A stretch of 52,414 nt of DNA from positions 1-52,414 of the forward strand of contig JAGGVT010000156.1 of NCBI GenBank assembly GCA_021157815.1, given 5' to 3'. Source of the stretch: a bacterium. GTDB lineage: Bacteria; JAJVIF01; JAGGVT01. Under the pieces are notes generated by a model. The model saw nothing but the letters and a program-made list of their open reading frames with translations. It was not told the DNA's origin and made no database searches. Shown here in pieces: positions 5,009 through 24,797 of the stretch. The number at the start of each line of letters is the position of its first letter. Positions within the stretch are counted from its first letter, which is position 1. The position numbers and the translations under genes are program-made.

Positions 5009-5272
5009 TTAAAGAGCCCTTAATATTTCAAGAAATTCCTCGACGTTTGATTCTGCTTTTCGAATCAGGCTTTTTATCAGCGATGGTTGAAGTTCTTTGT
5101 TGTGGAAGGGGATAGCAAGGTTTAACAACTTTTGAGGATGGTTATATACTTTATGTGAGCCATGTTGCGTGGTTAATTCATAGCCCATTTTCTCAAAAAC
5201 CATTGCAACCAACTCAGGCTTGACAGGTTTGAGAATTTTGCTTCCCGATGGTTTTTTCTTTCGAGCTATCAT
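5009..5272 (-). CDS. hicA: HicA-type mRNA interferase toxin
   Basis: 87-residue protein of the HicA (YcfA) family, a double-stranded-RNA-binding-like fold that cleaves mRNA when free of HicB. The key motif GSHKVYNHP (around residues 37-45) carries the expected glycine, serine and catalytic histidine; KPELVAMVFEKMGYEL before it and LAIPFHNKELQPSLIKSLIRKA after it match the family layout. An N-terminal basic tail (MIARKKKPSGSK) is somewhat long. The gene starts 3 bases after the hicB stop codon, so the pair is translationally linked, antitoxin first. The identification is strong; toxicity is not shown. Confidence 0.88.
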   Translation of the reverse strand: MIARKKKPSGSKILKPVKPELVAMVFEKMGYELTTQHGSHKVYNHPQKLLNLAIPFHNKELQPSLIKSLIRKAESNVEEFLEILRAL

Positions 5273-5275
5273 CGA

Positions 5276-7235: not shown

Positions 7236-7243
7236 TGGTATAA

Positions 7244-7978: not shown

Positions 7979-8583
7979 TGCAAATTGCCATACAGGATGA
8001 AACAGCCTGTCTTTAAGCGGTATTTAAGCTGCGTAAAAATTTGTCAATTTTCAAATAATGATGAAAATTGCATCATAAAATTGAAATCTCGTTGAGTTAA
8101 ATCTGCATTGTCGTTTCGGAATCTCTTAGAAAACGATTAAATTAAATCAGATTATAGTACGATTTAATGTATAACAGGAGTATTTCAGAAAAAGTTATGT
8201 CATATTGGACATTTCGTTGAATTATTTTCATTTCGGGCATATGCTGGCAATGAAATTGTTATAACATAAGGCGTCGTTATCCCTGGAATGCCCCCTTTCC
8301 TCATTAGAAGGCCTGGGAAAGGGGGATTTGAAAAATAGTATTAACTTTTATATAATGAAAAGTATTATTTTAAAAAGTTGGGAAGTTTAATTTAACCAAA
8401 GGGGAGAGGAGTTAAATGTGAGATAGTGTTTTCGAAACTGGCGCGGGTTCCATCAGGGGCGCGTTAGTTTGTGTGCATTTTTGGCGATGCTATAAAGGTT
8501 GCTCTTTATTTGCATGGGCGATACTTTTTTAACGAAGTACAAACGTGGAGGTTAAGGAATAAACCTGGAGGTTAATTAAAATA
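7979..8583 (+). other. 605-base intergenic region and pilus-operon leader
   Basis: No gene is convincing here. A weak ACAGG/CCTGT hairpin with CTTT (7991-8014) may end the glycosyltransferase unit. An inverted repeat CCCCCTTTCC...GGAAAGGGGG spans 8290-8325. A strong promoter follows at 8328-8356, leaving ~220 bases of leader before 8584. The leader contains a ribosome-site-like GGAG before an ATG-TGA start-stop (8416-8421) and two GGAGGTTAA boxes near 8550 and 8570. I could not fold it onto a known riboswitch. Confidence 0.5.
8328..8356 (+). promoter_or_regulatory. Strong promoter of the pilin operon
   Basis: TTGAAA, 17 bases, then a perfect TATAAT. The start would be near 8363. Adjacent to the 10-base-pair inverted repeat CCCCCTTTCC...GGAAAGGGGG at 8290-8325, which touches the -35 box and could be a regulator site or an older terminator. 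The nearest downstream gene is the PilX-like gene at 8584. Confidence 0.75.
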
Positions 8584-11229
8584 ATGAAAGTGTTTTTTGG
8601 ATTCAAATTGATTTCCTGGGATGAACGAGGCGCGTCGCTTGTAGCCATCGCGATTATTTCTTTCTTCGTGGCGCTTGTTGCTCTGACTACACTTGCGTTG
8701 ACAAAAGCTGAAATCGAGTCTGTTGATGATCAGACCAGTGTTCAGCAGGCGAAGCTGGTTGCCGAGGTTGGATTGGAGCATGCTCTTGTGGGCCTGCGCC
8801 AGGGTCAGGACGACTATGTCCCCGAGGAAACCGAGGGTCTTCGCGATATGACCATGCAGGAGTTGTCTGATTACCTGCGCGACCCGGAATCCAACAGAGG
8901 GGTTGTTTATGATGAGGATCCCGACAGAACGTATTATTCCGCAATGGAGAAAACGAATATTGAATCGACTCCTTCCCCAACCTTCGAGACCATTCCCGGT
9001 GACAGTGCAAAGATAAACCTCACTTATGTTGATGACACAACTGTTGTTCGCGACATGAAAGAATATGATTACCAAAAACGTGTCGATAAGAATGAAAACT
9101 ACATCGTTTCACTTGGTGAGTCTCGCCGCAGCGATTCAGATGCTCGAAGCGCGATCAGCGCGAAATCATTTGAGGAATCGTCCACAATACTGGAACGGCG
9201 TGAGGTTCAGACTCAGGTTTTTAATGAAAATCATCTTGACCCGCCATATATCGAATCGGAACATGATTCCTATGACAGCAGCCTCAACAGAAGCTGGGTT
9301 GTTTCATATCCGAACGACCCATCAAACCAGTATCGTGGAATAACTGGAATCAACGTGGTAATTGACCAGGCGAGTCTTGGGCTTGGTTCCGTTGGCGATA
9401 CGCTTTCCTTCAGTTCGTGGAATGAGGCGACATCATCGTTTGACCCGCCATTTGATATTCTGTCGGGACCGCTTTCTGAAGGAACGTTGATGTATCAGTC
9501 AGCTTCACCAATTCCGACCAAGGCGATTAAAATCACGATGCTTACGGATTCGACTGATGATACGGCAAATGCCACTGCCAACTACGGATTTAAAGTAACC
9601 GGAATTGAGTACCATTATGACAGCGATGTTATCGAAGCATGTTATGAAACACCCCATCCTTATTCTGAAATTGAAAACAACATTTCATTCGCTGCCAAAC
9701 CGGATTTAATCCAGGTTATCTATTCTCCTTACGCTTTGCCAACATGGCGTGTAAATCCCATTGAGAAACCGGGGGATGGCATTGTTCTGCCCTGGGACAA
9801 GGATGAGCTTGCCACGGAGTTACCTGAAAATGAAGGCAGCGGAAGTTTAAGCGAGAGCTTGTATGAAAAGATCCGTCTTAAAAATGTAGGCGGTAATGAA
9901 TATCAGGTTATGCGGATTCATTTTGACAGTGAGTTCTATATAGAAAGCGGTGATGTACTGGATGTTTTCAATGGTAATACGGGTGCGATGATTGCATCCT
10001 ATACCGGCGCTGCCGGTGCGAATGCATACACGCCGTATGCTTTCCGTTCGAATCCCGATTTCCCGCTTGCCCTGATTCTCATGCTGCGACGCGACGGCAA
10101 CAACGATGAGCTTCCCGATCCGTATGGATATAAAGTTGATATTCTTGAATACAGTGATGAGAATGGCAACAGGGCTGTTATTTACAATCCTGTGCAGGGA
10201 ACGGCTCATGCTGAAAATATTGGATACAACGACGGCATGGCTGGAGCGATGAGAACTAATTTTGTCTTCAAGCCTGGTCCGCCTGAAATGGGTGGAACAG
10301 TTACAAACTGGAAAGTTGTATTCGACTGGGACGCGGATCTTCTGAATCTGGCGTCTGATTCAGACAGAATAATTCTCAGAAGGTCAGCCATTACAGGTCC
10401 AATGGTTAATGATTTATATTTCGTTACACCGGATGGCACTTATGGAGGCAATATTGGTGTTGTTCCGGGTTATATCAACATTAGTGAATTACGCCATTAT
10501 ATAATTGATATGGGCACAAGGTTCTGGCTTGAGATAATCACTGAATTCGATACCGAGAATTCATTCGCGAGAGTTGTGTCGAACCATGGATGGAGCATAT
10601 CTCACATTGAGGTTGCTTATAACAATGCCATTGCCGTCGATAACACAGCGCCAAGGTTGAGATCATCGTCGGTTACGCTAAAGTCGGCGGAAACCTGCGA
10701 AGCGACGCTTCTGAATCTTGAGTATCCATCATTTGGAAGCGAAGCTGATAATCGTGGTGAATGGTGGGTGAATTCAAAAGACCAGAAACAAATCCTTCTG
10801 CATTTTGACCTTGAGAGTTTCCGTCTTGAAGAGAATGACGCTATTTACATTTACAATGAAAATGGCTACTTGATGAAACTTATCCGTCCGGAAGGATATG
10901 ATGATAGTGGATTTACACATGGTGGAATATACGATCCGGACAATGATGACACGGGCGGCGGGACCATTGGATTTGAATTCCCGCCCAATCCGCCTGAAGA
11001 ATTAATCGAATCGCACGGTTGGGTTATCGTTACATCCGATTCAGCTCAGATTGTGCTTATGGGTGACGGCTCACCGAATATCGGATATTCCGGGTTCGAC
11101 ATCGACCGTATTGCATACTGGAGTCCTGTGGTAAATATTCGTAACATCATGACTGAATTCAGTTCAGATGATACGGATGAGTATTCGTTTAAGGTTACAG
11201 ATCCGGTCGATAAATTCCGTCAGTATTAA
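8584..11229 (+). CDS. PilX-like minor pilin with repeated CUB-like modules
   Basis: 881 residues. The N-terminus has a short basic leader ending ERG, then a 25-residue hydrophobic helix (ASLVAIAIISFFVALVALTT) with no glutamate at position 5, as in PilX/GspK-type minor pilins. The first ~80 residues (TSVQQAKLVAEVGLEHAL) match the PilX N-terminal helix. The rest is an unusually long ectodomain: about four beta-rich modules near residues 220-345, 430-525, 545-680 and 695-860, each with a pattern recalling CUB domains (for example MRIHFDSEFYIESGDVLDVF, then GYKVDILEY). CUB-like domains bind partners or sugars outside the cell. It is first in the prepilin operon. Start ATG 8584, with GGAGGTTAA upstream. 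Confidence 0.72.
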   Translation: MKVFFGFKLISWDERGASLVAIAIISFFVALVALTTLALTKAEIESVDDQTSVQQAKLVAEVGLEHALVGLRQGQDDYVPEETEGLRDMTMQELSDYLRDPESNRGVVYDEDPDRTYYSAMEKTNIESTPSPTFETIPGDSAKINLTYVDDTTVVRDMKEYDYQKRVDKNENYIVSLGESRRSDSDARSAISAKSFEESSTILERREVQTQVFNENHLDPPYIESEHDSYDSSLNRSWVVSYPNDPSNQYRGITGINVVIDQASLGLGSVGDTLSFSSWNEATSSFDPPFDILSGPLSEGTLMYQSASPIPTKAIKITMLTDSTDDTANATANYGFKVTGIEYHYDSDVIEACYETPHPYSEIENNISFAAKPDLIQVIYSPYALPTWRVNPIEKPGDGIVLPWDKDELATELPENEGSGSLSESLYEKIRLKNVGGNEYQVMRIHFDSEFYIESGDVLDVFNGNTGAMIASYTGAAGANAYTPYAFRSNPDFPLALILMLRRDGNNDELPDPYGYKVDILEYSDENGNRAVIYNPVQGTAHAENIGYNDGMAGAMRTNFVFKPGPPEMGGTVTNWKVVFDWDADLLNLASDSDRIILRRSAITGPMVNDLYFVTPDGTYGGNIGVVPGYINISELRHYIIDMGTRFWLEIITEFDTENSFARVVSNHGWSISHIEVAYNNAIAVDNTAPRLRSSSVTLKSAETCEATLLNLEYPSFGSEADNRGEWWVNSKDQKQILLHFDLESFRLEENDAIYIYNENGYLMKLIRPEGYDDSGFTHGGIYDPDNDDTGGGTIGFEFPPNPPEELIESHGWVIVTSDSAQIVLMGDGSPNIGYSGFDIDRIAYWSPVVNIRNIMTEFSSDDTDEYSFKVTDPVDKFRQY

Positions 11230-11230
11230 A

Positions 11231-11299
11231 TTTCCCGGGTGTTTAATGAACACCTTTGGGAAACAGCCTGGGATAATGGCGTTGTATCAACTAACGCCA
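11231..11299 (+). promoter_or_regulatory. Intercistronic hairpins between the PilX- and PilV-like genes
   Basis: Two stems: TTTCCC-GGTGTT-TAATG-AACACC-TTT-GGGAAA (nested, 11231-11263) and TGGCGTT-gtatcaact-AACGCCA (11277-11299). There is no T-tract, so they are more likely RNA-stabilising or processing elements than terminators. Confidence 0.45.
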
Positions 11300-11317
11300 A
11301 ACGGGAGTAAACAGATA

Positions 11318-12946
11318 ATGAGAGCATTAAGAAGTAAAATATCTGAATTAATCTCCTCTGATGCTGGTTTTACGCTTCTTGAAGTTGCGTTTGCCGGTGC
11401 GATAATGGTTATTGTCGGACTTGCTTATCTTGGAACCATCTCTCAGAGCATTTCAATCGCGCAGCTTTACACGGATCAGAACCAGGCGAATATATTAATC
11501 GAACGCGAGATAGAAGTTCTTAGAAATACGAAATTCGATACGATTCCCTTTAAGCAAACATCAGAACCGGACAAGCTCGAGGAAGTTCCGGATTATTACG
11601 ACAATATTGCAATCGCCAATCTTGATCCACTTGAACCGGGCTTTGTCGGGTCAAGCGGCGATCAGCTTGATTGCGACGATTTCAACGTGTTCGATAGTGT
11701 TCGTGCCAGCGATGAAAATAGCAAACGATGGATGGCTGTTGAAAATGGGCCTCTTGTTACAGCCGGCAGTTTTGTGCCAAGAACTGATGAGCCAATTATC
11801 ATCGATAACCCGGACGATCCAACTGAACCAATCATTATCAATCCACAGGATTATCAGTTTCCCATGGAGATTAACAGCGAAAGCCAATATGTTTATGTTG
11901 CTTTCCAGAAGTTGCAGAAAATTCACAGGATTATTTACGATAACCGGTTTAATGTTCGAGGAGACGATTCGCTTCCTGATACGGATATTGATTACCGATG
12001 CCAGCGAAACAGCATCTGGCAGAGGGATTATCAGATTTTCATTTCAGCCGATAGTGAAATAATGCCCGGTCTCCCATTCAGGCCTGATTACAATTCAACC
12101 GAGGTAATCCAGGAAGAAACGGAGCTGGGATACGGTTCAACGGGATTAATTGAGGTTTACAATAACTTTGAAGAACCGCTTGAAGCTACCGTTCTCGGTG
12201 TGGCGAATATATCTGTGGAAACGGATTTTGATTCCACATACCATTATCCTTATGCAACCGAGCTTGAAGCGTATGGTTACAAACTGGCAACATCCTATAA
12301 GGAGCGGTATGTGTTCGAAAATGGCGATGTTCATGTAGGCAACTATATAATGTTCATGCCCAAATACCTTGATTCCGGTTTCGACCTTTTCAGGCGGATT
12401 TATCTGGTTGAGGGTGAAACTGATTTCCCGCCCACACTGCAAAAACAGCCTTTGTACAGGATTCAGCTGAAGATTTACATGCATGACGATTCACGCAACA
12501 CGGATAGTTTTGTGAAGGAATTCTGGTGGCAGGAGGACGACAAGGAAATCATGGAATTTACCATGACCCTGGCAAGGAAAGTTACACCTGCTCAGGATAA
12601 CCTTCCGGGCCTGCAGGATTTGCCAAGGCATACCTACTATTATAACGATGAAGATGCCGAGTTTTCCTATACTATTCCGGGTGCGAATCGAATAAGGGCG
12701 CATTTTAGCACATTCGAACTGCAGAATTATCCGGATACCGATTACTTGGAGTTTTATGACAAGACGGGTGACCAGTACGGTGGACAGTATTTTGGGACCA
12801 TGATATCGTTATTCAGCCTTGGCCCATACAGCCCGTGGGTTGATGGTGATACAATTAAAATTCAATTCAAATCAGATGATTATGCGTCCAGTATTCCGAA
12901 CGCGAATCTTGACGGATTTGAAGTTGACTTTGTTGAAATTGATTAA
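11318..12946 (+). CDS. PilV-like minor pilin with C-terminal CUB-like domain
   Basis: 542 residues from ATG 11318 (GGGAG upstream; the frame is open from 11168 but overlaps the previous gene). A leader ending SSDAG is followed by FTLLEVAFAGAIMVIVGLAY, a type III prepilin signal with Glu5, as in PilV/GspI-type minor pilins. The ectodomain is very large for this family (typical PilV is 130-180 residues). The last ~110 residues (RIRAHFSTFELQ, then YLEFYDKTGDQYGG, then DTIKIQFKSDDYASS and LDGFEVDFVEI) read like a CUB beta-sandwich. The middle has a proline-acidic stretch (DEPIIIDNPDDPTEPIII). Second gene of the operon; an adhesive role is inference. Confidence 0.72.
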   Translation: MRALRSKISELISSDAGFTLLEVAFAGAIMVIVGLAYLGTISQSISIAQLYTDQNQANILIEREIEVLRNTKFDTIPFKQTSEPDKLEEVPDYYDNIAIANLDPLEPGFVGSSGDQLDCDDFNVFDSVRASDENSKRWMAVENGPLVTAGSFVPRTDEPIIIDNPDDPTEPIIINPQDYQFPMEINSESQYVYVAFQKLQKIHRIIYDNRFNVRGDDSLPDTDIDYRCQRNSIWQRDYQIFISADSEIMPGLPFRPDYNSTEVIQEETELGYGSTGLIEVYNNFEEPLEATVLGVANISVETDFDSTYHYPYATELEAYGYKLATSYKERYVFENGDVHVGNYIMFMPKYLDSGFDLFRRIYLVEGETDFPPTLQKQPLYRIQLKIYMHDDSRNTDSFVKEFWWQEDDKEIMEFTMTLARKVTPAQDNLPGLQDLPRHTYYYNDEDAEFSYTIPGANRIRAHFSTFELQNYPDTDYLEFYDKTGDQYGGQYFGTMISLFSLGPYSPWVDGDTIKIQFKSDDYASSIPNANLDGFEVDFVEID

Positions 12947-13005
12947 TATATGATACGTTTGAGATTTGAGTTATAATCGGATTTATGAGAGTATTAGAGG
13001 TTATT

Positions 13006-13058
13006 ATAAAGTGTAAACTTTATTAAATGATGGGGAATAAGCAGTTAAATGAAACTGC
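13006..13058 (+). promoter_or_regulatory. Intercistronic hairpins before the PilW-like gene
   Basis: ATAAAGT-GTAA-ACTTTAT (13006-13023) and GCAGTT-aaatga-AACTGC (13041-13058) lie in the 142-base gap between the PilV-like and PilW-like genes. Likely RNA structures that tune expression within the operon. Confidence 0.4.
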
Positions 13059-13088
13059 GGAGGTTCGTGGAGAAAAGGCAAGTTTAAA

Positions 13089-13757
13089 GTGGCAAGAGCG
13101 AAATATCAAAATATCCTGACACCATTCCTCAATGAGGATGGGTTTACCTTGCTTGAGGCAGTTATCGCATCCGCGATAACTGCTGGAACGCTGGTTATTG
13201 TTCTGCTGTTCAGCATGCGCTCATTTGAAATAGCGAGCGAGATAAATACTGTGAACGATGTCAATCATTCGTTCAGGCGCACCCAGAGAGCTTTTGTGCG
13301 TGATGTTCAGATGGCGCAGTATTTCTTTTTTGGCGCTGATGTGGATAATGAAAACAATCAGATTCCAAATGAGTTTATTGACAGAAGAGTTTTGACAGTT
13401 GGCCGCGAGAATGAAGATGGTGAGATGATCTGGTCGCGGTACGCGGTAAAAATTGGTACCGAGACAACAATATATTATCTTCTTGTTACTACAAACGAAC
13501 TTGAAGGCGCTGAACATTTCGAGACGAATATCATCGCCACAAATGTGCAGGACATGTATTTCGTTTACTATGACGAGGATGATATTGAAACAACAAAGGC
13601 TGAGGATGTTCGTCGAATTGAAATGACACTTGTTCTCGAAGAGAATAATGTTACAGAAATGATGCATTTCTCTTCGACTCTCAGGGGAAAGAATCTTGGA
13701 GTCGCCCTTCCTGATGAGAATATTGAAGTTCATCAGAATACGAACTTTGTGAAATAA
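13089..13757 (+). CDS. PilW/GspJ-like minor pilin
   Basis: 222 residues starting at GTG 13089; an AAGG lies ~10 bases upstream. Leader MARAKYQNILTPFLNEDG, then FTLLEAVIASAITAGTLVIV with Glu5. After the helix come FRRTQRAFVRDVQMAQYFFF, and later IATNVQDMYFVYYDEDD with RRIEMTLVLEENNVTEMMHF. This pattern is usual in GspJ/PilW minor pilins, which sit near the tip of the pilus or pseudopilus. Third in the operon after the PilX- and PilV-like genes, the order found in minor-pilin clusters. Unlike the two before it, it has normal length and no CUB-like part. Confidence 0.78.
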   Translation: MARAKYQNILTPFLNEDGFTLLEAVIASAITAGTLVIVLLFSMRSFEIASEINTVNDVNHSFRRTQRAFVRDVQMAQYFFFGADVDNENNQIPNEFIDRRVLTVGRENEDGEMIWSRYAVKIGTETTIYYLLVTTNELEGAEHFETNIIATNVQDMYFVYYDEDDIETTKAEDVRRIEMTLVLEENNVTEMMHFSSTLRGKNLGVALPDENIEVHQNTNFVK

Positions 13758-13768
13758 AACAGCGAATT

Positions 13769-14302
13769 ATGAACTTTTTTGAAAGACATACAAATCACCT
13801 TTTGGGCAATGCCTACGATGACAGCGGTTATACGTTAGTCGAAATGCTGTTTGTATGCATGATTATCGTAACAATTGCGATGATGAGCATGGGAGCATAC
13901 AGCAAGCAGAGGAAGTTCGGAATTGAGTCGATTTGTGTCACCAAACTCAAGCAGATTGCGCAGTATCAGGAATCATACAGAGACATTGGCGACCCGTCGT
14001 TGAATCCTGATGCATCATACGGAACGTTTTTCAATTTGCAGAATGCCGGGTTCATTCCATCGTGCTTTGTGTCGGCTGATAATGAAGCTCACGATGTCGA
14101 AGCGTTTATTAGGTATTACAAGATAGAGATTGTACGATCACCGACAGGACTGACCGAGGAGCCTGATAGAAACCAATATATGGTATTTGCTTCACCGATA
14201 GGGGCGCCGTACAAGAAAATGCGGATTTTCATGATGCAGGAAGATGGTGAGGTTTATTTCTTTTCAAACAATACTGACGGTGCGCGTATAGTCTGGGAAT
14301 AA
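13769..14302 (+). CDS. Type IV prepilin-like protein 1 of the tandem array
   Basis: 177 residues, leader of 20 ending YDDSG, then YTLVEMLFVCMIIVTIAMMS with Glu5. Position 1 is tyrosine instead of phenylalanine. The globular part has KLKQIAQYQESYRD, AFIRYYKIEIVRS and QYMVFASPIG...RIFMMQEDGEVYFF, the layout shared by most members of the array: an aromatic spine helix, a YS-type strand and a C-terminal DG turn. It starts 11 bases after the PilW-like gene and overlaps nothing. The role as a pilus or pseudopilus subunit is from the signal and context; which is the major subunit cannot be said. Confidence 0.8.
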   Translation: MNFFERHTNHLLGNAYDDSGYTLVEMLFVCMIIVTIAMMSMGAYSKQRKFGIESICVTKLKQIAQYQESYRDIGDPSLNPDASYGTFFNLQNAGFIPSCFVSADNEAHDVEAFIRYYKIEIVRSPTGLTEEPDRNQYMVFASPIGAPYKKMRIFMMQEDGEVYFFSNNTDGARIVWE

Positions 14303-14346
14303 TGTGCATATTACTGTCAGCGGTTTCCGCGGGACAGGAGCCTGAT

Positions 14347-14847
14347 ATGAAGTTCACTGAAATGAGAGACATATTGAAAGTACATGATGACAATGGATAT
14401 ACAATCCTTGAGGTTATCATGGTGGCGATGATAATCGGCATATTGATTACCATAGGCACGGCGCATTACCTCGAAGCCAGACGGCTGGCATCGGAGCATC
14501 TATGCGCCACAAGGCTTGCCAATATCGATGTGTATGAAAAAATGTATTATCGCCAATATGCGACATACGCCACATTTCAGGAACTTCAGGATGAGGGTTT
14601 CATTGATGCGGCATATACAGCGCATGATGATGTTCTGTCCAATGCAACACCATATATCCCCGAGTATTTCATGACGTTTAATATCTCAAGTGATACATAC
14701 CAGGTGTCGGCACAGACGGTTCATGGTGATTTCAACGCCGTTTATGTTCGCTGGCGCATGTCCGGCGGACTTGAAGACAAACGGGGCATGTTTGTTGATC
14801 AGACGGGAGTTGTCAGATATCTCTATAACAGACGTCCCGTGTTTTAG
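14347..14847 (+). CDS. Type IV prepilin-like protein 2
   Basis: 166 residues from ATG 14347 (AGGAG 6 bases upstream; an earlier ATG at 14302 overlaps the previous stop codon but lacks this site). Leader MKFTEMRDILKVHDDNG, then YTILEVIMVAMIIGILITIG, Glu5 present. Next are LANIDVYEKMYYRQYATYAT and ELQDEGFIDAAY. The C-terminal part (TVHGDFNAVYVRWRMSGG) diverges from the other array members and lacks the FIxxYS motif. It is followed 3 bases later by the next prepilin gene. Confidence 0.78.
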   Translation: MKFTEMRDILKVHDDNGYTILEVIMVAMIIGILITIGTAHYLEARRLASEHLCATRLANIDVYEKMYYRQYATYATFQELQDEGFIDAAYTAHDDVLSNATPYIPEYFMTFNISSDTYQVSAQTVHGDFNAVYVRWRMSGGLEDKRGMFVDQTGVVRYLYNRRPVF

Positions 14848-14850
14848 TTT

Positions 14851-15399
14851 ATGACTGGAGAAAGAGTGTTTAATCATTACGGCATATTCAGTAATTCAGA
14901 TTTGGAAAGCGGCATGACGCTGGCAGAGATTCTGGTTGTCATTGGGATTATCTTGATAATCGGGACACTCGCAATACCGAGTATCGTGCAGGTAAAGCGC
15001 AGGCATTTCGAGGATATCGCGATGCTTAAGCTCAAGGATGCCGCGAATGCAGAGAAACGCTACTTTCAGCAGTACAACAGGTTCGGGAAATATTATGAGC
15101 TTGTTGATGCCGGATTCCTGCCACATGGTTACACAACGAGGCTTGAATACTGGGGCCCAATTACAGGAATAAGCACAAGACCGTTCATTGAAGCGTACAG
15201 TGTTCGATTCCTGGTGCCGGAAAGTCCGAATTCGCTCTATTTTAAAATCGTGGCGTATCCTGTTGATGAGGCGCTTGGGCTCAGGGCATTTAATGTTAAT
15301 ATGTATCTGAACTTCGAGGGCAGGCCGGATTTAATATACCAGGACCCGCCTTTGAGAAATGGATTGCTGGATGACGGTTTGCCGATAGGGCATATTTAA
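14851..15399 (+). CDS. Type IV prepilin-like protein 3
   Basis: 182 residues. Leader of 21 ending LESG, then MTLAEILVVIGIILIIGTLA: Met at +1 and Ala at +4 are unusual, Glu5 is kept. It then has LKDAANAEKRYFQQYNRFG and ELVDAGFLPHGY. FIEAYSVRFLV and FKIVAYPVDEALGLRAF match the shared array signature; a C-terminal extension (PDLIYQDPPLRNGLLDDG) is specific to this member. It begins 3 bases after member 2, so the two are likely translated together. Confidence 0.8.
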   Translation: MTGERVFNHYGIFSNSDLESGMTLAEILVVIGIILIIGTLAIPSIVQVKRRHFEDIAMLKLKDAANAEKRYFQQYNRFGKYYELVDAGFLPHGYTTRLEYWGPITGISTRPFIEAYSVRFLVPESPNSLYFKIVAYPVDEALGLRAFNVNMYLNFEGRPDLIYQDPPLRNGLLDDGLPIGHI

Positions 15400-15464
15400 T
15401 AAAATAGTCAGTTTTGGGTAATAACTATATGGAAGAAAGGTCGGAATAAATCAGGAAGAATCGG

Positions 15465-15929
15465 ATGGCTTTGAGAATGGACAGAAACAGGCAGAAAGAA
15501 TCAGGATTCACGCTAATCGAGGTGCTGGTAGTTGTTGGTATTCTTGGAATCCTCGCGGTTCTGGCGATTCCATCACTGACCGGGACTGAAAGGTCGGCGA
15601 GGGAATCGGCGTGTGTCCGGGGTTTGCGCTCACTGGCTGATGCGGAAGAGATTTACTATGTACATCAGAAGCATTATCCCGGCGGCGAGGATGGCGTCCA
15701 CTGGTTTCGCCTTAGAAGCGTAGATGCCATCGACCCGAAAGTCTATAAAGGAAGCAAGAATGATTCGTTCATTCGCGACTATTCACTGTTATTCTATTCG
15801 ATTGGCCCATGGGCGCAGGCGTATTCGGTTGTGGCATACCCGATTAATCCTGAGCTGGGGATGCGGACTTTTATTATGAAAGATGACGGTATCATCAGAA
15901 ACACTGATAACGAGCCGATTAGGGGCTAA
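15465..15929 (+). CDS. Type IV prepilin-like protein 4
   Basis: 154 residues, textbook signal: MALRMDRNRQKESG leader, then FTLIEVLVVVGILGILAVLA with Pro at ~22. The helix continues ACVRGLRSLADAEEIYYVHQ; the globular part contains SFIRDYSLLFYS, YSVVAYPINPELGMRTF and KDDGIIRNTDNEP. This is the clearest example of the array's C-terminal signature. One cysteine is visible at ACVRG, so no disulfide loop of the classical pilin kind. It stands 65 bases after the previous stop and 51 before the next ATG. Confidence 0.84.
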   Translation: MALRMDRNRQKESGFTLIEVLVVVGILGILAVLAIPSLTGTERSARESACVRGLRSLADAEEIYYVHQKHYPGGEDGVHWFRLRSVDAIDPKVYKGSKNDSFIRDYSLLFYSIGPWAQAYSVVAYPINPELGMRTFIMKDDGIIRNTDNEPIRG

Positions 15930-15980
15930 TTTTTACAAGGCTGTTGTTTGATAAAAAAACAAAAAGAGCGGAAGCGCGTT

Positions 15981-16475
15981 ATGACTGAAAACTTTAACAG
16001 AAAGAAAGACAAAAACGGATTCACGCTGGTGGAGATACTGGTCGTTGTTGGAATCCTTGGCATAATCACAGTACTTGCGATTCCGGCATATTCGAGAGTG
16101 CAGAATTCCGCTCTGGAAGCGGGAGCGGTAAAAGGCCTGGAAGCGGTCTATAGCGCTTATCAGCTTTACTATCGCGACCACGGATATTATCCGCCCGCGC
16201 GATCAACATATACAACAGAGTTCTATCATCATGTCAGGATGTATCTTCCCAGAGACCTTACAGATGCTTCCGTTACAGACAGTTTTATAAAAGGCTACGA
16301 GTTAAGGGCGCTGACAAGGCCATTCGCTGGTGGTGTGGTTGAGAATGGGCTCATACGGGGTTCGCATTATTTTACAATCATGGCGATTCCGGTGAACACA
16401 AATCGAGGTTTAAGGACGTTCTTTATCGAACCGAACGGAATTGTTACTGACGGCAATACTGAAAACCCGATTTAA
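15981..16475 (+). CDS. Type IV prepilin-like protein 5
   Basis: 164 residues from ATG 15981 (GGAAG six bases upstream; a TTG at 15948 is in frame but gives a 24-residue leader). Leader MTENFNRKKDKNG, then FTLVEILVVVGILGIITVLA. Next comes ALEAGAVKGLEAVYSAYQLY, then YYPPARSTYTTEFYHHVR, then DSFIKGYELRALT, FTIMAIPVNTNRGLRTFFIE and PNGIVTDGNTENP. It is closest in its first 60 residues to member 4, suggesting duplication. The next gene's start lies 40 bases downstream. Confidence 0.83.
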   Translation: MTENFNRKKDKNGFTLVEILVVVGILGIITVLAIPAYSRVQNSALEAGAVKGLEAVYSAYQLYYRDHGYYPPARSTYTTEFYHHVRMYLPRDLTDASVTDSFIKGYELRALTRPFAGGVVENGLIRGSHYFTIMAIPVNTNRGLRTFFIEPNGIVTDGNTENPI

Positions 16476-16515
16476 TGAAATCGGGATGATGAAAATAAAT
16501 TCGAGGTATCGTTGC

Positions 16516-16992
16516 ATGAAAAGCTCGAAAGACATATTTAAAAATAACAGTGGTTTCACGCTGATAGAAATCCTGCTTGTTGTTGCGATAATCGCGATTC
16601 TGGTAACGATGGCGATTCCGCAAATTACCGGAACCCGCCATTCAAGCTATGAACTAAGCGCGATGCGTGCGTTGAAAGCTGTAGGCGCGGCGCAGCAGGC
16701 ATACAATAACGCATACGGCACTTTCATTCCGTATGAATGGCTGCAGGCGCGTAATTATATCTCGCCGAACTATCTCAAAGGTTCCGTTTCGGACAGGGGC
16801 AGGATAGCGAAGCATTATTCAATCAGGGTAATTATCGATGGCCCTATCACGACCCCGAGAGGTGTGAGATATACGGGATTCAGTGTAATAGCTGTCCCCG
16901 ACAGGGGTTTCGGGTTGAGGTATTTCAGATTGCAGGAGGATGGCGAAATTGAGCAAAGCGCGTCGGGAGCAGGGGGCTGGGAAGTAAGGTAG
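16516..16992 (+). CDS. Type IV prepilin-like protein 6
   Basis: 158 residues from ATG 16516 (GAGG 9 bases before); ATGs at 16486 and 16489 are alternatives. Leader MKSSKDIFKNNSG, then FTLIEILLVVAIIAILVTMA with Glu5 and Pro22. It has AMRALKAVGAAQQAYNNAYG, WLQARNYISPNYL, AKHYSIRVIIDG and FSVIAVPDRGFGLRYFRLQE plus a short DGEIEQ turn and glycine-rich tail. The signature is present with IAKHYS in place of FIxxYS. Confidence 0.82.
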   Translation: MKSSKDIFKNNSGFTLIEILLVVAIIAILVTMAIPQITGTRHSSYELSAMRALKAVGAAQQAYNNAYGTFIPYEWLQARNYISPNYLKGSVSDRGRIAKHYSIRVIIDGPITTPRGVRYTGFSVIAVPDRGFGLRYFRLQEDGEIEQSASGAGGWEVR

Positions 16993-17072
16993 TTAAATTA
17001 GAACGGCGGTTTTTCGCCTGAGATAAAATATTTTCTGAAGCTCGATCAACTAACAGTGGAGCTGCAATAGAA

Positions 17073-17549
17073 ATGGTGAATCGATTGAAAATAATAAAAA
17101 ATGATGAGGGTTTCACCCTCTTGGAAATACTTGTCGTGGCATTTATAATTTCAATTCTGGTCACGATGGGAATAACCAGTTTCATCAAAACTCGCCAGCG
17201 TGGAATAGAAGCCGCGGGCATGCATGGGATGCAGGCTCTTGGCGCGGCGATGCAGGCGTATCACAACGACTACGGCCGATTCACGAATTTCTATTCACTG
17301 CAGCCGGCATATATTGAAGCTGGTGTAAGGCTGAGCGATACATATCCGCCGAGGCCAAATCCGTTTATCAGGCACTTTTCGCTCTCATGGACCTTTGCTT
17401 CCGCACAACCGCATATATTCAGTATTAATGCGATTGGGATATATGACCACTGGCGCGCTGGAAATGACAGAATTGAGTTGATGATTACTAATAATGGAGT
17501 ATTGAAAAAACGTCAGGCGGGTGTGGGTGAGTTTGTGCCTGCGAATTAA
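17073..17549 (+). CDS. Type IV prepilin-like protein 7
   Basis: 158 residues, leader MVNRLKIIKNDEG, then FTLLEILVVAFIISILVTMG. Next is GMHGMQALGAAMQAYHNDYG, followed by FIRHFSLSWTFASAQPHIFS and INAIGIYDHWRAGNDRIELM, ending with a TNNGVLKKR turn. The shared GxRxF step is replaced by an insertion with two aromatic residues. A Shine-Dalgarno-like GGAG lies ~12 bases before the ATG at 17073. It is followed by 227 bases that hold two palindromes before the next prepilin gene. Confidence 0.82.
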   Translation: MVNRLKIIKNDEGFTLLEILVVAFIISILVTMGITSFIKTRQRGIEAAGMHGMQALGAAMQAYHNDYGRFTNFYSLQPAYIEAGVRLSDTYPPRPNPFIRHFSLSWTFASAQPHIFSINAIGIYDHWRAGNDRIELMITNNGVLKKRQAGVGEFVPAN

Positions 17550-17567
17550 GTGTAACTGACTGGCAGC

Positions 17568-17639
17568 AGCCCGGTTTCTCATTAACCGGGATTATGACAA
17601 GTTAAGTTGTGTTTTCCCCGGTTAATGAGAAACCGGGCT
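17568..17639. repeat. Perfect 23-base inverted repeat inside the pilin operon
   Basis: Arms AGCCCGGTTTCTCATTAACC...(23 bases) match their reverse complement perfectly across a 26-base loop. It lies between prepilin genes 7 and 8 and ends CGGGCTAC, so it resembles the GTAACCCGG family by its outer ends. A strong RNA hairpin here could separate upstream from downstream expression. Confidence 0.8.
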
Positions 17640-17708
17640 ACGAAGAAGTAAGTGGCATAACTGGATTTTTTGATTGAAGAGGTTATGTGCGGGTTGAGTT
17701 AGATTTTT

Positions 17709-17729
17709 CCCGGGAAATGGATTCCCGGG
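17709..17729. repeat. Short palindrome CCCGGGAA...TTCCCGGG
   Basis: CCCGGGAA-ATGGA-TTCCCGGG, then CTAC. It lies 48 bases before prepilin gene 8, is similar in sequence to the 87-139 element, and may be a reduced copy of the same family. Confidence 0.65.
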
Positions 17730-17776
17730 CTACATAGAAAAAAACGACTGGTTCAGTGAAAGTGTTGTGAGGTAAT

Positions 17777-18247
17777 ATGAACTTCATAAGAAATAAAATG
17801 AACAATGATAGCGGTTTTACGCTTATCGAAATGGTGCTTGTGGCGCTGATGGTTCTGATTCTAGCCACGATGGCCATTGCGAGCATGCGCAGGGCGCGTG
17901 AGGCAGGCCTTGAAACGGCCGCCCAGAAAGCTCTGAAATCGCTGGCTGAATCGCAGGAAATGTTCTACCAGGACAACTATGATTACGCGGATGATTTCAG
18001 CCAGCTTCTTCAGCGATATCTGCCGCGAACATATACTGACGCGGACAGGTCGAATGGTTTTATTCGTTCCTACAGCGTCCTGTTCCAGGTAAATGGCACA
18101 CCTGTACTTGGAACGAGCCGTATCGCCCAGAACAGTGTCTATCCCAATTACACGATATACGCAGTTCCGCTTGCCAGTAATCTCTCGCTAAGAACCTATT
18201 GGATAACGCAGTCAGCGCGTGTTTCCGATTATGTGGCACTGCCATGA
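17777..18247 (+). CDS. Type IV prepilin-like protein 8
   Basis: 156 residues. Leader MNFIRNKMNNDSG, then FTLIEMVLVALMVLILATMA. It has ALKSLAESQEMFYQDNYDYA, LLQRYLPRTYTDA, GFIRSYSVLFQV and YTIYAVPLASNLSLRTYWIT, so the shared signature is complete up to the final strand, where DG is missing (TQSARVSDYVALP). It ends 13 bases before the start of the next gene at 18261. Confidence 0.82.
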   Translation: MNFIRNKMNNDSGFTLIEMVLVALMVLILATMAIASMRRAREAGLETAAQKALKSLAESQEMFYQDNYDYADDFSQLLQRYLPRTYTDADRSNGFIRSYSVLFQVNGTPVLGTSRIAQNSVYPNYTIYAVPLASNLSLRTYWITQSARVSDYVALP

Positions 18248-18260
18248 CAGAGGACAACCG

Positions 18261-18734
18261 ATGAGATTGAATATTACAAATAGATATTTGAAAGACGAAA
18301 AGGGATTTACCCTTATCGAGGTTCTCACAGTAGCCGCGATGATTGCCATACTCGCGACAGTGGCACTCGCCAGCATGCATAGAAGCAGGGAGGCGGCTTA
18401 TGAAGCGCAGGCAATCGGCGCGCTTCGAACGCTGTCAAGCATGGAATATGTTTATTTCTTCGATAACAAAGTGTTCGCTGACTGGCATCAACTGCAGGCT
18501 GTGGGTGATTTGGTCGATTCGGATTATGTCAAAGCGGACGATATGGATAACGCGTTTGACCATCCGATCGCAATGAAATACTCGCTGCATTTTGTAATCA
18601 ACGATAACGGCAGTGATTTTACAATTTACGCTTATCCCCAGTTGACAGCGCATTATTACTTGAGAGCTTTCAGTGTTTTTAGTGATGGCGCGATTAATAA
18701 CGCGGGATTTGAATTGAACCCAACATCGCCGTAG
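18261..18734 (+). CDS. Type IV prepilin-like protein 9
   Basis: 157 residues from ATG 18261 (AGAGGA 6 bases before; a frame opening at 18219 would overlap the previous gene). Leader MRLNITNRYLKDEKG, then FTLIEVLTVAAMIAILATVA. Next are AIGALRTLSSMEYVYFFDNK, DWHQLQAVGDLVDSDY and AMKYSLHFVINDN, then FTIYAYPQLTAHYYLRAF and SDGAINNAG. It carries the array signature with MKYSL for FIxxYS and LRAF for GxRxF. Confidence 0.82.
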   Translation: MRLNITNRYLKDEKGFTLIEVLTVAAMIAILATVALASMHRSREAAYEAQAIGALRTLSSMEYVYFFDNKVFADWHQLQAVGDLVDSDYVKADDMDNAFDHPIAMKYSLHFVINDNGSDFTIYAYPQLTAHYYLRAFSVFSDGAINNAGFELNPTSP

Positions 18735-18820
18735 CGGTGTTGAAATAGAAATTATTATTTTGTTTAACGAAAGAAACTGATTCTTGCTGATATGAGATTC
18801 AGATAACATCGGAGGCAGCG

Positions 18821-19258
18821 ATGATAAAAATGTTTAATAATCTTCTCCACAGGAATGACCGGGGATTTACACTACTGGAACTTCTGGTGGTCAGTTCGAT
18901 TATCGGAATTCTTGCGGCGATAGCCATCCCATCGCTTGGCGGGTCGCGTCGAAGCGCGTTGCAGGCGGCTTGTGTCAAGGGATTGAAATCAATTTGCGAC
19001 AGTGAGGAGATGTTCTATCGCCTGAACGGGCGCTACACGGATAACTGGAGCGAGCTGGATGACTTTCTGCCAAGCGCGTATTCAAGCTATGCGATGAAGC
19101 GTTATTTCATCGAGTCATACAGCCTGCAATTTTCAAGTGATCCATCTCGACAGACTTTTACCGTTTATGCATGGCCTTACTATGGCAAGATGCGACTTGG
19201 CACTTTCAAGATAAACGATGAGGGTGTTGTTACCACAGAGACCAACAGGCCGGTTTAA
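18821..19258 (+). CDS. Type IV prepilin-like protein 10
   Basis: 145 residues, the shortest member. Leader MIKMFNNLLHRNDRG, then FTLLELLVVSSIIGILAAIA with Pro22. It has ACVKGLKSICDSEEMFYRLN with two cysteines nine residues apart, YFIESYSLQFSSDPSRQTF, WPYYGKMRLGTF and INDEGVVTTETNRP. GGAGG lies about 5 bases before the ATG, the strongest ribosome site in the array, and the gene has an 86-base gap in front; it may be among the better translated. Its stop overlaps the first possible ATG of the next reading frame (TAATG). Confidence 0.84.
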   Translation: MIKMFNNLLHRNDRGFTLLELLVVSSIIGILAAIAIPSLGGSRRSALQAACVKGLKSICDSEEMFYRLNGRYTDNWSELDDFLPSAYSSYAMKRYFIESYSLQFSSDPSRQTFTVYAWPYYGKMRLGTFKINDEGVVTTETNRPV

Positions 19259-19290
19259 TGATATTTCAGTATTTTGCTTTTTGGAAAGTC

Positions 19291-19899
19291 ATGTTGAAGA
19301 ACATTTTTCTACATAATGAATCCGGCCATACATTGGTTGAAATCCTTGCTGTTTGCGGCATAATAACGATACTTGCGACCATTCCGGTAGCGTATATGCG
19401 TGAGGCGAAAATCCGTGCGAATGAAACAGCCGCTCTGGGCGCGCTTAATCAAATGGCAGCCGCGTATGAGATGTACCGCGTGGTTGGCGACCGCCAGCGC
19501 TTCTATCCGCATTTCTATTCACATGGTTTAATCACTGATACGGTTACTTTTCACAATCCTGAGGAAATATGGGATGAGCTAATCAGGCAGGGACTTTTGC
19601 CGTACAAGTACGCAGCTAATAATCACAATACGCCGAACCTGCTGGCACCAGGTTATTCTTTTTCAATCTACCCGGTAAATTATGACGTAGTGGATAATTA
19701 CAGCATTAATCCGTGGGATAGTTATGCCTTCGCGCTGATTCCATTTCCCGGAAGCCGTCAACCCAGAACAATGGCGCTTATTCATGGTGAGTATTTCGAT
19801 CATTATTTTACAAACGCCCGCGCGTATAAAACATCATCAACATCGTCGGACATTTCAGACGCGCGGATATTCACTTTCAAGGACCCTGAGCCTGATTAG
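19291..19899 (+). CDS. Type IV prepilin-like protein 11 (longer form)
   Basis: 202 residues from ATG 19291, which gives a 12-residue leader MLKNIFLHNESG with GGAAAG just before it; an ATG at 19258 overlaps the previous stop but would add a hydrophobic stretch atypical of a leader. Mature start HTLVEILAVCGIITILATIP with His at +1. Next is ETAALGALNQMAAAYEMYRV, then a long insertion (VGDRQRFYPHFYSHGLITDT) and ELIRQGLLPYKYAANNHNTP. The C-terminus (PRTMALIHGEYFDHYFTNAR) diverges. Members 11 and 12 share the longer form and ELIRQGxLP/LTREGxLP, suggesting a sub-group. Confidence 0.8.
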   Translation: MLKNIFLHNESGHTLVEILAVCGIITILATIPVAYMREAKIRANETAALGALNQMAAAYEMYRVVGDRQRFYPHFYSHGLITDTVTFHNPEEIWDELIRQGLLPYKYAANNHNTPNLLAPGYSFSIYPVNYDVVDNYSINPWDSYAFALIPFPGSRQPRTMALIHGEYFDHYFTNARAYKTSSTSSDISDARIFTFKDPEPD

Positions 19900-19921
19900 A
19901 AACAGGATTAAATCAGGTGGC

Positions 19922-20518
19922 ATGCGAGTTTTGCTTTTGAAATTGGAAAATAGAAAATCGATATCTAACAACGACATGGGGTTCACTTTGCTTGAGCTCC
20001 TTATCGTTTGCACTATCATTGGCATATTGGCAACGATGTCGGTCTCACTTGTAAGTCGCGCGCGAGTGAACGCTCGTGAGACTGCGGCAGTTGTCACACT
20101 GAATTCATTCGCAGGCGCCTGGGAATCATACTGGGCACGACACGGCACGTATCCTCACTGGGGCGAGGGCATGAAATATTCCGATCCGCAGCAGCTGTTC
20201 AGAACGCTTACTCGTGAGGGATATCTGCCATCAGCCTATAGCCAGGTGCCGTATTATGAACCTGACAAGCAGTTTTACCAAATCACCGATGACTATGCTC
20301 TTGAGATTTTTCCGTTCACTGACGGCGACGGAAGACGTGCGCCATCTAATTACTACTGGCTGCTCTTGCATCCACTGGGATTTCAAAGACAACAGGGATA
20401 TCTTGGAATAGGAACTGATTCGAGTTGTGGAAAAGCGGCGGTTAGGGTGCGTCTTGGTGACTCGAGAGGTGATATTAACCAGTTTACGATTTATAGCCTT
20501 CACCACAGGGAAAATTAA
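19922..20518 (+). CDS. Type IV prepilin-like protein 12 (longer form)
   Basis: 198 residues from ATG 19922. Leader MRVLLLKLENRKSISNNDMG, then FTLLELLIVCTIIGILATMS with Glu5. Next is ETAAVVTLNSFAGAWESYWA, then HGTYPHWGEGMKYSDPQQLF and LTREGYLPSAY. The C-terminal part (YALEIFPFTDGDGRRAPSNY) holds a possible acidic loop (TDGDG); its function is not known. Last gene of the prepilin array. A 361-base gap with a new promoter separates it from pilM. Confidence 0.8.
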   Translation: MRVLLLKLENRKSISNNDMGFTLLELLIVCTIIGILATMSVSLVSRARVNARETAAVVTLNSFAGAWESYWARHGTYPHWGEGMKYSDPQQLFRTLTREGYLPSAYSQVPYYEPDKQFYQITDDYALEIFPFTDGDGRRAPSNYYWLLLHPLGFQRQQGYLGIGTDSSCGKAAVRVRLGDSRGDINQFTIYSLHHREN

Positions 20519-20879: not shown

Positions 20880-22073
20880 GTGGCTTTACCGTTTTTAAAC
20901 ACCACCCCCAAGAAAGCTCTGGGTTTGCATATTGGCGCCAGTCAAATCAGAGTGGTGGAGATTGAACGGGGCAAGGCTGATTTGATGCTGACGAATATCG
21001 GCTGGATTGAAACGCCGTCAGAAGCGTATGTGGGCAGCCACCTGGAAAACCCCAGCATAATCGCTGGCGCGGTTTCCCGTCTGCTTGCATCGCGAAACAT
21101 CCGAACGAAACGTGTGTTGGCGACAATTGATGCAAACGATACTATCGCGCGAACGATATTGCTTCCATCCATGGCAAAAAAAGATCTTAGAAAAGCGATT
21201 ATTTTCGAGATGGAAGCTTCTCTGCCATCAACTGGTGAAGAGAATATTCTCGATTACCAGGTTCTCAGGGTTTTCGAAAATCCCGAGGATAACTCCGAGC
21301 AGGTGTCAGTGTTGATTCTCTCGACCCAAAGGCAGAATACTGTCGCCGTGGCCGAGGCTATGACACAGGCTGATTTGAAGCCGGTTGCGATTGACCTTAC
21401 TCCGGTTGCCTCTTTCCGCGCTGAGAAGCGAAGTGACACATATTTGGAAAATGGAGAGGACCTGATAATAATCACGATTAATGACCGATGCACGGACCTC
21501 ACGATTATCAACCAGGGTAACGTTAGATTTGTGCGTTCACTGCCGATAGGTTCCGCAAATATTCTAGATGCCATAGGTGAAAAGCCCTTGTTCAACGATG
21601 TGGTTGACCGACTGGCAAAGGAGCAGGAAAAAGAACATGAACCCGCTGATGAACCTGAGGATGAAGTGAAAGCGTTTGACCCGTTCGGCGGTTCTGATGC
21701 TCCATCACCATTTGCAGGCAGCGCCGGCCAGCCCATGATGATGGATAAAGACGAAAAACCGGGTATCGGTCGCATTGAAAGTTTGATTACTGAACTTGCC
21801 GACGAAACTCTGAATACAATGCGATACGGCCAGTCTATTGGCAAGGAACAGACCGATGTCAAGTACGCGATGTTAAACGGTTATTTCCCATACAAGGAAG
21901 AATTTATTTCAAGTTTGAAGGAAAAACTTGGCCAGGACGTTTACCCGGGAGACCCGTTCTCCTCTCTTGATTTGACAAGTCCTGGACTGGAGGAAGAATT
22001 GATTGACAGGTTTGCTCCAAACTTTTCTGCGGCATGCGGTCTTGCGCTGAGGGGGGTGGGTGAGTATGAATGA
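20880..22073 (+). CDS. pilM: Type IV pilus assembly protein PilM
   Basis: 397-residue actin-like ATPase that sits on the cytoplasmic face and binds the tail of PilN. The N-terminus (KKALGLHIGASQIRVVEIER) has the phosphate-1-type loop, then VLATIDANDTIARTILLPSM and KAIIFEMEASLP, typical of PilM, and IDLTPVASF. Residues ~247-300 are an acidic, proline- and glycine-rich insertion (EHEPADEPEDEVKAFDPFGG and a MMMDKDEK stretch) absent from short PilM proteins. The start is GTG 20880 with GGAGG five bases upstream; an ATG at 20878 is out of frame. The last bases overlap pilN. Confidence 0.88.
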   Translation: MALPFLNTTPKKALGLHIGASQIRVVEIERGKADLMLTNIGWIETPSEAYVGSHLENPSIIAGAVSRLLASRNIRTKRVLATIDANDTIARTILLPSMAKKDLRKAIIFEMEASLPSTGEENILDYQVLRVFENPEDNSEQVSVLILSTQRQNTVAVAEAMTQADLKPVAIDLTPVASFRAEKRSDTYLENGEDLIIITINDRCTDLTIINQGNVRFVRSLPIGSANILDAIGEKPLFNDVVDRLAKEQEKEHEPADEPEDEVKAFDPFGGSDAPSPFAGSAGQPMMMDKDEKPGIGRIESLITELADETLNTMRYGQSIGKEQTDVKYAMLNGYFPYKEEFISSLKEKLGQDVYPGDPFSSLDLTSPGLEEELIDRFAPNFSAACGLALRGVGEYE

Positions 22074-22656
22074 TGATTATCTCATTAATTTACTCCCGTC
22101 AGAATATTTGCCCAAGCCGGAATTCAAAGGATTTCCGCTTTTTGTTATCGCTGTTCTTGTGCTTGTTGGCGTGTTTGTTTTTTTGGATAACACAAGAATA
22201 ACGGGCAGAATTAATACACTTAAGGAATTAAAAAAAAATCAAACAGCGTTGGTTAATAGGCGAACTCCGCTGGCATTGGAGGCTCTGGACGTTCAGGCGC
22301 GAAGCAGAGTGCTTTTTTCCTATGGTGTTTCCATTTGGTCAATGTTGCATCAGATCCCTCCCTGGATTGATGTCTATAATGAGATTGAGGAGAGTATTCC
22401 AAAGGGAATGTGGATTGAGAGCCTGACACTTGTCGGAGGGGGCGAAAGGAAATGGCCCAGTTTTACCATGGTGGGTATTGTCGCGGGAAACAAACCGGGG
22501 ACTGTATTGGATTTCTATGCATTAATGTTGGAACCGGATAGCAAGTTTGAGAAAGTCAAGATATCCGGTTATACATTTATCAAGCATGACAGGCAGGACG
22601 CGGTCATGTTTAATATGAGGTTCTCAATAAAGAAATCCGGATTTGAGGGTTTTTAA
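22066..22656 (+). CDS. pilN: Type IV pilus assembly protein PilN
   Basis: 196 residues. The N-terminus MNDDYLINLLPSEYLPK contains the conserved INLLP motif that docks onto PilM, followed by one membrane helix (PLFVIAVLVLVGVFVF), a coiled region and a ferredoxin-like fold. It forms the inner-membrane alignment subcomplex with PilO. The start at ATG 22066 (GTG 22060 is in frame) overlaps the last codons of pilM, indicating translational coupling. Assignment is secure from the motif plus the gene order. Confidence 0.87.
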   Translation: MNDDYLINLLPSEYLPKPEFKGFPLFVIAVLVLVGVFVFLDNTRITGRINTLKELKKNQTALVNRRTPLALEALDVQARSRVLFSYGVSIWSMLHQIPPWIDVYNEIEESIPKGMWIESLTLVGGGERKWPSFTMVGIVAGNKPGTVLDFYALMLEPDSKFEKVKISGYTFIKHDRQDAVMFNMRFSIKKSGFEGF

Positions 22657-22674: not shown

Positions 22675-23466
22675 ATGCTGAAGATTTACCTACAGATATT
22701 TGGCACGCTTGCGTTGGGTTTGATAATTCTGTTGAATTATAACGTCTTTATGAAAAAACCCAACAAAGAGAAGATAGTGGAACTGCAAAAAGAGATGAAA
22801 ACTCTTGAGGTAACAGCGCAGACACTTGACAAAGTACTGAATCATCGCCCTCATTTTGGCACGCTTGAGAATTTTCAATCGCAGGATCTCGATGATGTTC
22901 GTGTGTTTTATGCGGACTCTTTTAATGAACCGGCGTTTATGGGTAAGCTGCAAAAGCTGGTTGACCTTTCAGGATGCACAACAAACGGAATTATCGTTGG
23001 GAATATCAAAGGAGTATCGAATCCTTTGAAATATGAGTTTTTTAAAACCAAACAGAAGGAAAACCTGGAAAAGAGCATTAACTCGTTTGTAAGCACCATG
23101 GATGAATATGCCGGTAATACCGCAAAATGGCAGTCGATTGTTGGTGATAACAGCGATTATTCATCAAGATTGGTGTTTTACCATTCGATATCAGGAGGAA
23201 AGAAATTTCCATCTTCGATGAATAAGGGATTTGAGGTTCACAGGTTTAAACTGAATCTTAAGGGCAATTACACAAGCTGCAAGAAATTCCTGTATCTCGT
23301 CAGCAGAAACAGGCCATTTACGGAAGCCATTGTTCATTCATTTGTACCAATAAATGAAAAGCAGGGCGTTGAAAAGATGTTTGCCTGCCGCGTGACAATC
23401 CTTACGTATAGGGACAAGAATGAGAAGATGCACCCAATACAGAAAATGGTGGATGTTCAGGTTTAA
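22675..23466 (+). CDS. pilO: Type IV pilus assembly protein PilO-like
   Basis: 263 residues: one N-terminal helix (LQIFGTLALGLIILLNYNVF), then a coiled stretch (EKIVELQKEMKTLEVTAQTL) and a C-terminal ferredoxin-like domain with FEVHRFKLNLKGNYTSCKKF. This is the arrangement of PilO, the partner of PilN in the periplasmic alignment complex. It has an insert around residues 110-185 relative to common PilO proteins, which are ~200 residues. AGGAG lies ~9 bases before the ATG. It starts 18 bases after pilN. Confidence 0.8.
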   Translation: MLKIYLQIFGTLALGLIILLNYNVFMKKPNKEKIVELQKEMKTLEVTAQTLDKVLNHRPHFGTLENFQSQDLDDVRVFYADSFNEPAFMGKLQKLVDLSGCTTNGIIVGNIKGVSNPLKYEFFKTKQKENLEKSINSFVSTMDEYAGNTAKWQSIVGDNSDYSSRLVFYHSISGGKKFPSSMNKGFEVHRFKLNLKGNYTSCKKFLYLVSRNRPFTEAIVHSFVPINEKQGVEKMFACRVTILTYRDKNEKMHPIQKMVDVQV

Positions 23467-24448: not shown

Positions 24449-24797
24449 TATTCTCCGGTTTGATTACTGGTGGATATAAATATAGGAAAAATGGTATAAT
24501 CCGTTGTTTTACAGGCGGGGAAATGGTTTTAGATTTGTGTTTTAACTGATATAATCGGCAACGTGATGGGAGGTTTCGAATTAGGTTTTCCGAACACCCG
24601 TCAATGTCTTTTATGAGGAGATTGATAATATATTTGCTTTAACTTTCAGTTATATTAAATGTATTAAAATCGGATTGGAATTCTTAACAAGGCGAAATAT
24701 GAAAACGATACAAATGCCGGGCAGTTTACATAGAGCGATGTCGGTATATAAGAACATCAGTAATCGAAACAACAAAAGCCGAGGAGTTTACCACTCG
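24449..24797 (+). other. Gap before pilQ with possible promoters
   Basis: About 349 bases. Two TATAAT boxes are visible (near 24494 and 24552); one has a TGGATA 18 bases upstream, so pilQ may have its own promoter, though the match is weak. In-frame start codons for pilQ exist at 24675 (TTG), 24699 and 24738, but the sequence before 24798 does not look like secreted protein. Confidence 0.4.

Follow-up and report, generated by a model that had tools for sequence, protein, structure and literature searches.

The window analysed here, a 52,414-nucleotide stretch of bacterial DNA that is a single contig of a 3.2-Mb genome in 221 contigs (G000), carries fifteen intact prepilin genes in a row, and is best interpreted, from its sequence, as holding the locus for the minor pilins and alignment complex of a type IVa-like pilus from a poorly sampled bacterial class. 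We propose, with a probability of roughly 0.55, that the minor-pilin set that forms and primes the tip of this pilus has grown from about four or five to fifteen individually conserved subunits. The open reading frame listing and a prepilin-signal scan place the fifteen frames, none of which has internal stops, at 8584-20518 on the plus strand. Three large prepilins come first and are followed by twelve small ones (13769-20518), with pilM, N, O, P and Q downstream (Table 1). All of the PilX-, PilV- and PilW-like genes and the twelve small prepilins named in a preliminary description of this DNA are present and intact. The cluster does not, however, start at 8328 as that description had it, as this position belongs to a -35/-10-like site (11/12) and the first gene begins at 8584.

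Table 1. Features of the pilus locus and the basis on which each was assigned.
Feature	Coordinates	Strand	Basis
Promoter-like TTGAAA-17-TATAAT, upstream of cluster	8328..8356	+	Consensus scan, 11/12; weak
Large PilX/GspK-like prepilin, 881 aa, without Glu5; beta-rich C-terminus and possible CUB-like stretch	8584..11229	+	Open reading frame, orthologue alignment, hhalign
Large PilV/GspI-like prepilin, 542 aa; predicted C-terminal CUB domain at ~12635-12943	11318..12946	+	Prepilin signal, profile match, Foldseek
PilW/GspJ-like prepilin, 222 aa, GTG start	13089..13757	+	Signal scan and positional best match
Small prepilin 1	13769..14302	+	Signal; orthologues in 4/4 genomes
Small prepilin 2, frame open from 14302	14362..14847	+	Signal, tree
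Small prepilin 3, Pro22 present	14851..15399	+	Signal, Pro22 pattern, tree
Small prepilin 4, Pro22 present	15477..15929	+	Signal, Pro22 pattern, tree
Small prepilin 5, Pro22 present	15981..16475	+	Signal, Pro22 pattern, tree
Small prepilin 6, Pro22 present	16516..16992	+	Signal, Pro22 pattern, tree
Small prepilin 7	17073..17549	+	Signal, tree
Gap with dispersed REP-like palindromic repeat	17550..17776	.	Sequence; repeat count in genome
Small prepilin 8	17798..18247	+	Signal, tree
Small prepilin 9	18261..18734	+	Signal, tree
Small prepilin 10, Pro22 present, most conserved of array	18830..19258	+	Signal, Pro22 pattern, tree, identities
Small prepilin 11	19291..19899	+	Signal, tree
Small prepilin 12	19922..20518	+	Signal, tree
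pilM	20880..22073	+	Pfam PilM_2, E 2.5e-25
pilN-like	22060..22656	+	Pfam PilN, E 0.019 (weak); position
pilO-like	22675..23466	+	Position, conservation; no Pfam match
pilP-like	23516..24448	+	Position; no supporting Pfam match
pilQ secretin, 1507 aa, AMIN domain	24675..29198	+	Pfam Secretin, E 6e-39; AMIN, E 4.1e-7
Lipoprotein-like gene after pilQ; lipoprotein-like gene at same place in relatives	29238..29825	+	Sequence, position
Conserved gene after lipoprotein, CsgG-like by eye	29877..30857	+	tblastn, two relatives, 29-30%; no Pfam match

Genes of the array mostly overlap or lie less than 100 bp apart, exceptions including 227 bp between small prepilins 7 and 8 and 361 bp before pilM, and this spacing suggests that the fifteen genes form one operon. 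It could be argued that the subunits are alternatives of which only one or a few are expressed at once, giving conditional tips or pili, as the gap between prepilins 7 and 8 bears a repeat and promoter-like sites occur inside the array. The tight spacing and frequent overlaps make this proposal doubtful, and the wide gap is not common to the relatives, shrinking to ~80 bp in one of them (G001) and giving way to overlapping genes in another (G002), while the promoter-like matches (54 in the consensus scan against 36 expected, some of them within the array) are mostly expected by chance. The repeat in the gap is a REP-like palindrome, CCCGGTTAATGAGAAACCGGGCTAC, with 59 copies in the genome at ≤3 mismatches and none for the reversed control.

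Each small prepilin has a short leader ending in G, followed by F/Y/M/H-T-L-x-E and a hydrophobic helix, with Glu5 present in 12/12 and a mature length of 130-190 aa. Eleven match Pfam N_methyl (PF07963) at E ≤ 0.005, eight of these above the curated cut-off. Small prepilin 3 reaches only E 0.19, its identity as a prepilin being backed by its signal (ESG↓MTLAE) and its orthologues. Weak matches to Lactamase_B_6, DUF4381 and CBM39 fell below the Pfam cut-off and were disregarded. An FTLxE-type signal had been attributed to every member of the cluster; a class III prepilin signal with Glu5 is indeed found in 14 of the 15, but not in the first large protein, which starts RG↓ASLVA and lacks Glu5, as do PilX and GspK. 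The residue is absent from all three complete copies in the orthologue alignment, and Pfam PilX_N gives a hint in one orthologue only (E 0.13). PilX without Glu5 has been described in Myxococcus xanthus, Pseudomonas aeruginosa and Neisseria gonorrhoeae (PMC7541494).

The search for relatives returned 59 genomes, only three of which (G001, G002 and G003) belong to the same class, the others sharing only the domain. A contig search with the single PilM gave no match, and one with an alignment recovered two relatives only. Both G001 and G002 contain the PilV-like and PilW-like genes and exactly twelve small prepilins in a single unbroken run, and the order of prepilins and pil genes is identical to that in the window. 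Complete copies of the PilX/GspK-like gene are present in G002 and G003, and that of G001 is truncated where its contig stops. In G003 the locus is split, with prepilins 1-7 on one contig, 8-12 and pilM on a second, and the PilX-like, PilV-like and a truncated PilW-like gene on a third. The small prepilins thus number exactly twelve, in one common order, in 4/4 class genomes, and none of the array genes is broken in the three relatives. A chimeric or broken assembly, or another artefact of metagenome assembly, was considered and rejected, the array recurring in three further genomes and once lying within a contig of 1.88 Mb that belongs to a near-complete genome.

Conservation extends to the individual genes. 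In comparisons of the window, G001 and G002, the positional counterpart is the best match for 14 of 14 genes, and in a maximum-likelihood tree each of the twelve positions is a clade of its own, with 11 changes required, the minimum possible, compared with 37.6 in shuffles (a star marks 11 of the 12 position groups; support for position 11 is 80/82). The duplications are therefore older than the split of these families. Within the array the C-terminal parts share a pairwise identity of 18-37% (median 25%), which bears out the earlier claims that the twelve diverge strongly past residue 25 and are not recent copies. Between orthologues the corresponding identity is 30-57%, similar to that of PilM, N, O and Q (~21-50%), and thus the array pilins are not hypervariable. 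Comparison of G001 with G003 gave pN values of 0.08-0.25 and pS values of 0.66-0.93; as pS is mostly saturated, these indicate strong purifying selection rather than exact ratios. Pro22, a mark of shaft-forming pilins, occurs only at positions 3, 4, 5, 6 and 10, the other seven lacking it, in an identical pattern in 4/4 genomes. Many pilin genes in a row could in principle serve as silent copies for antigenic variation, as the preliminary description had suggested. Every gene is, however, complete with its own start and leader, near-identical copies are absent, orthology is strictly one to one, and number, order, length and Pro22 are fixed in the class under strong purifying selection, which leaves such a reservoir extremely improbable.

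Subunit numbers of this kind, which had been flagged as far above the usual, are constant within the class and not ordinary outside it. The longest prepilin run among 28 pilM loci from other genomes is four (several of the loci are short because of contig ends), and in nine further genomes, most of which are rich in prepilins with 12-60 N_methyl matches each, runs do not exceed five by spacing. Two prepilin-rich genomes of other groups (G018 and G121) have dozens of N_methyl genes, but these are scattered, with runs of at most 4-5. A seven-prepilin cluster in G094 was examined as a second large array and rejected, as it reads as two adjacent K-J-I-type sets, T2SS-like in character. The sampled genomes, far from covering all bacteria, contain no equal array outside the class. 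Likewise, 4/4 class genomes have a full-length relative of the PilV-like protein, whereas a search of 381-382 others yielded none, the match in G384 being confined to the CUB part.

The neighbours of the array are pilMNOPQ and not Gsp genes (GspD/E/F, GspL/M). PilQ contains a long low-complexity middle rich in Glu, Pro and Val between its AMIN-type and secretin domains, and is 1668-1677 aa long in two relatives. Several PilB-, PilT- and PilC-type genes, named from size, domain and context, are located at a distance from the array in every class genome; three PilB-type ATPases are candidates to serve the array locus, and in G001 a pilT-like gene directly follows the cluster. A putative Tad-like set is also present in each class genome. 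A second, distant PilM homologue (22-23% identity; G000:C67, G001:C72, G002:C1:65288 and G003:C138) mostly lies in a longer frame of ~673-720 aa and possibly belongs to a T2SS-like system. At its start the cluster has a K-I-J-like trio reminiscent of T2SS minor pseudopilins, and the array might thus be viewed as a specialised pseudopilus that serves protein secretion or DNA uptake, with the twelve small pilins, which could conceivably bind cargo, as adaptors for different substrates. This interpretation, also raised in the preliminary description, is less likely given that pilMNOPQ with an AMIN-type secretin adjoin the array and that a separate T2SS-like prepilin group is encoded elsewhere in two relatives (G002 and G003); we regard it as improbable. 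Just upstream of the array, 5841-7978 encodes a membrane protein with multiple passes and a glycosyltransferase of family 2 (DPM1-like by eye). G002 has a homologue of each at the corresponding position, and the two proteins might glycosylate the pilins. Elsewhere in the window we noted by eye, all on the minus strand, a HerA-like ATPase and NurA-like gene pair (644-3474), a HicA/HicB-like toxin-antitoxin pair (5009-5650) and fliG- and fliF-like flagellar genes (43125-45791).

PilA-type pilins are encoded as single genes elsewhere in G000 (C150 and C90), G001 and G002. They group together and apart from the array, and their C-terminal identity between G000 and G002 is 61%, compared with 33-57% for any array member. 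Because these separate pilins group apart and are more conserved, the array is read as a set of minor pilins, with the PilA-type protein as the putative major subunit. Codon usage was uninformative, since array genes and PilA could not be separated from the background and ribosomal protein genes barely differ from it, leaving no usable bias. The preliminary description had also raised a pilus of several alternating subunits, which may hold. A different view is that several or all of the twelve small pilins are interspersed or recur along the shaft, making a heteropolymeric pilus with a fixed subunit set. Consistent with this are twelve one-domain Glu5 pilins of similar size, each kept individually, five of which have Pro22 like shaft pilins, and the precedent of a bacterial heteropolymeric pilus in Streptococcus sanguinis, which has two major pilins (PMC10628169). 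That known heteropolymer consists, however, of two closely similar major pilins, whereas C-terminal identity in the array is only ~25%, and the distinct, more conserved PilA-type genes also argue against a mixed shaft, which we consider unlikely.

Two of the large prepilins offer clues to what the tip may display. Over the C-terminus, a profile of the PilV-like protein matched cubilin in the PDB (E 4.7e-8), with weaker matches to other CUB proteins. Foldseek, run with a model of mean pLDDT 34, returned CUB chains as its first 17 matches (probability 1.00, E ~1e-3 to 1e-2), and the Pfam CUB match was below the cut-off. The predicted C-terminal domain of the PilV-like protein is a CUB domain. 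The AlphaFold models of the two large prepilins have mean pLDDT values of 34 and 32 and are partly credible at the CUB end of the PilV-like protein only. Alignment of the PilX-like C-terminus with the PilV-like CUB region by hhalign (E 0.00029, probability 40%) is only suggestive of a CUB-like fold there. Modules of the CUB type may be borne by bacterial pilus tips. In the open-licence literature we found no paper that connects minor pilins of type IV pili with the CUB domain, although an earlier description, also of such an array, may exist elsewhere.

If the array is an enlarged minor-pilin set, assembly may be pictured as follows. All fifteen subunits would be processed by prepilin peptidase and would assemble into one filament. 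The Glu5-lacking PilX/GspK-like protein would begin a tip complex with the PilV-like and PilW-like proteins, these large prepilins lying outermost and exposing CUB-type modules as adhesins. Each of the twelve small one-domain pilins would then be added at a defined place, generating an unusually tall tip or priming stack, below which the PilA-type pilin encoded elsewhere would polymerise into the shaft, with PilMNOPQ and the unlinked PilB, PilC and PilT homologues as the machine. It should be emphasized, however, that pilins with and without Pro22 alternate along the array, a pattern that fits no simple order from tip to shaft. A tentative extension, that the filament or a long part of it comprises at least twelve different obligate pilins in defined order, and so a programmed subunit sequence, is possible but less likely than our leading view.

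In the well-studied bacterial type IV filaments, major subunits number one or two and minor subunits about four or five; the need for several minor pilins is still under debate. As the fifteen-gene row keeps its number and order across distant relatives, pili of this lineage probably use about three times the usual kinds of subunit. Fifteen distinct subunits in an order fixed over family-level divergence provide a natural test, and the fixed set suggests that information is carried by subunit position or identity. The twelve independent orthologue sets would allow contact inference with more genomes, four being too few. In the T2SS the pseudopilins GspGHIJK number five, with GspK lacking Glu5; the locus described here shares the K-I-J-like starting trio but adds twelve more small prepilins and pilMNOPQ. 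In M. xanthus, priming of the pilus is the task of PilY1 and four minor pilins, which are located at the tip and have been proposed to act in adhesion; the genome has three clusters of four minor pilins plus PilY1, twelve minor pilins in all, and one cluster can suffice (PMC7541494). The systems would be alike in a tip or priming set with PilX-like (Glu5-lacking), PilV-like and PilW-like members, but here a single cluster holds fifteen distinct subunits, and no PilY1 match was obtained in the four class genomes, the control genomes being silent too. The S. sanguinis type IV pilus, from a monoderm without a secretin, comprises five pilins, two of them similar major subunits, and resembles the present system in having several pilins and, at the tip, modular pilins with adhesin domains (PMC10628169).
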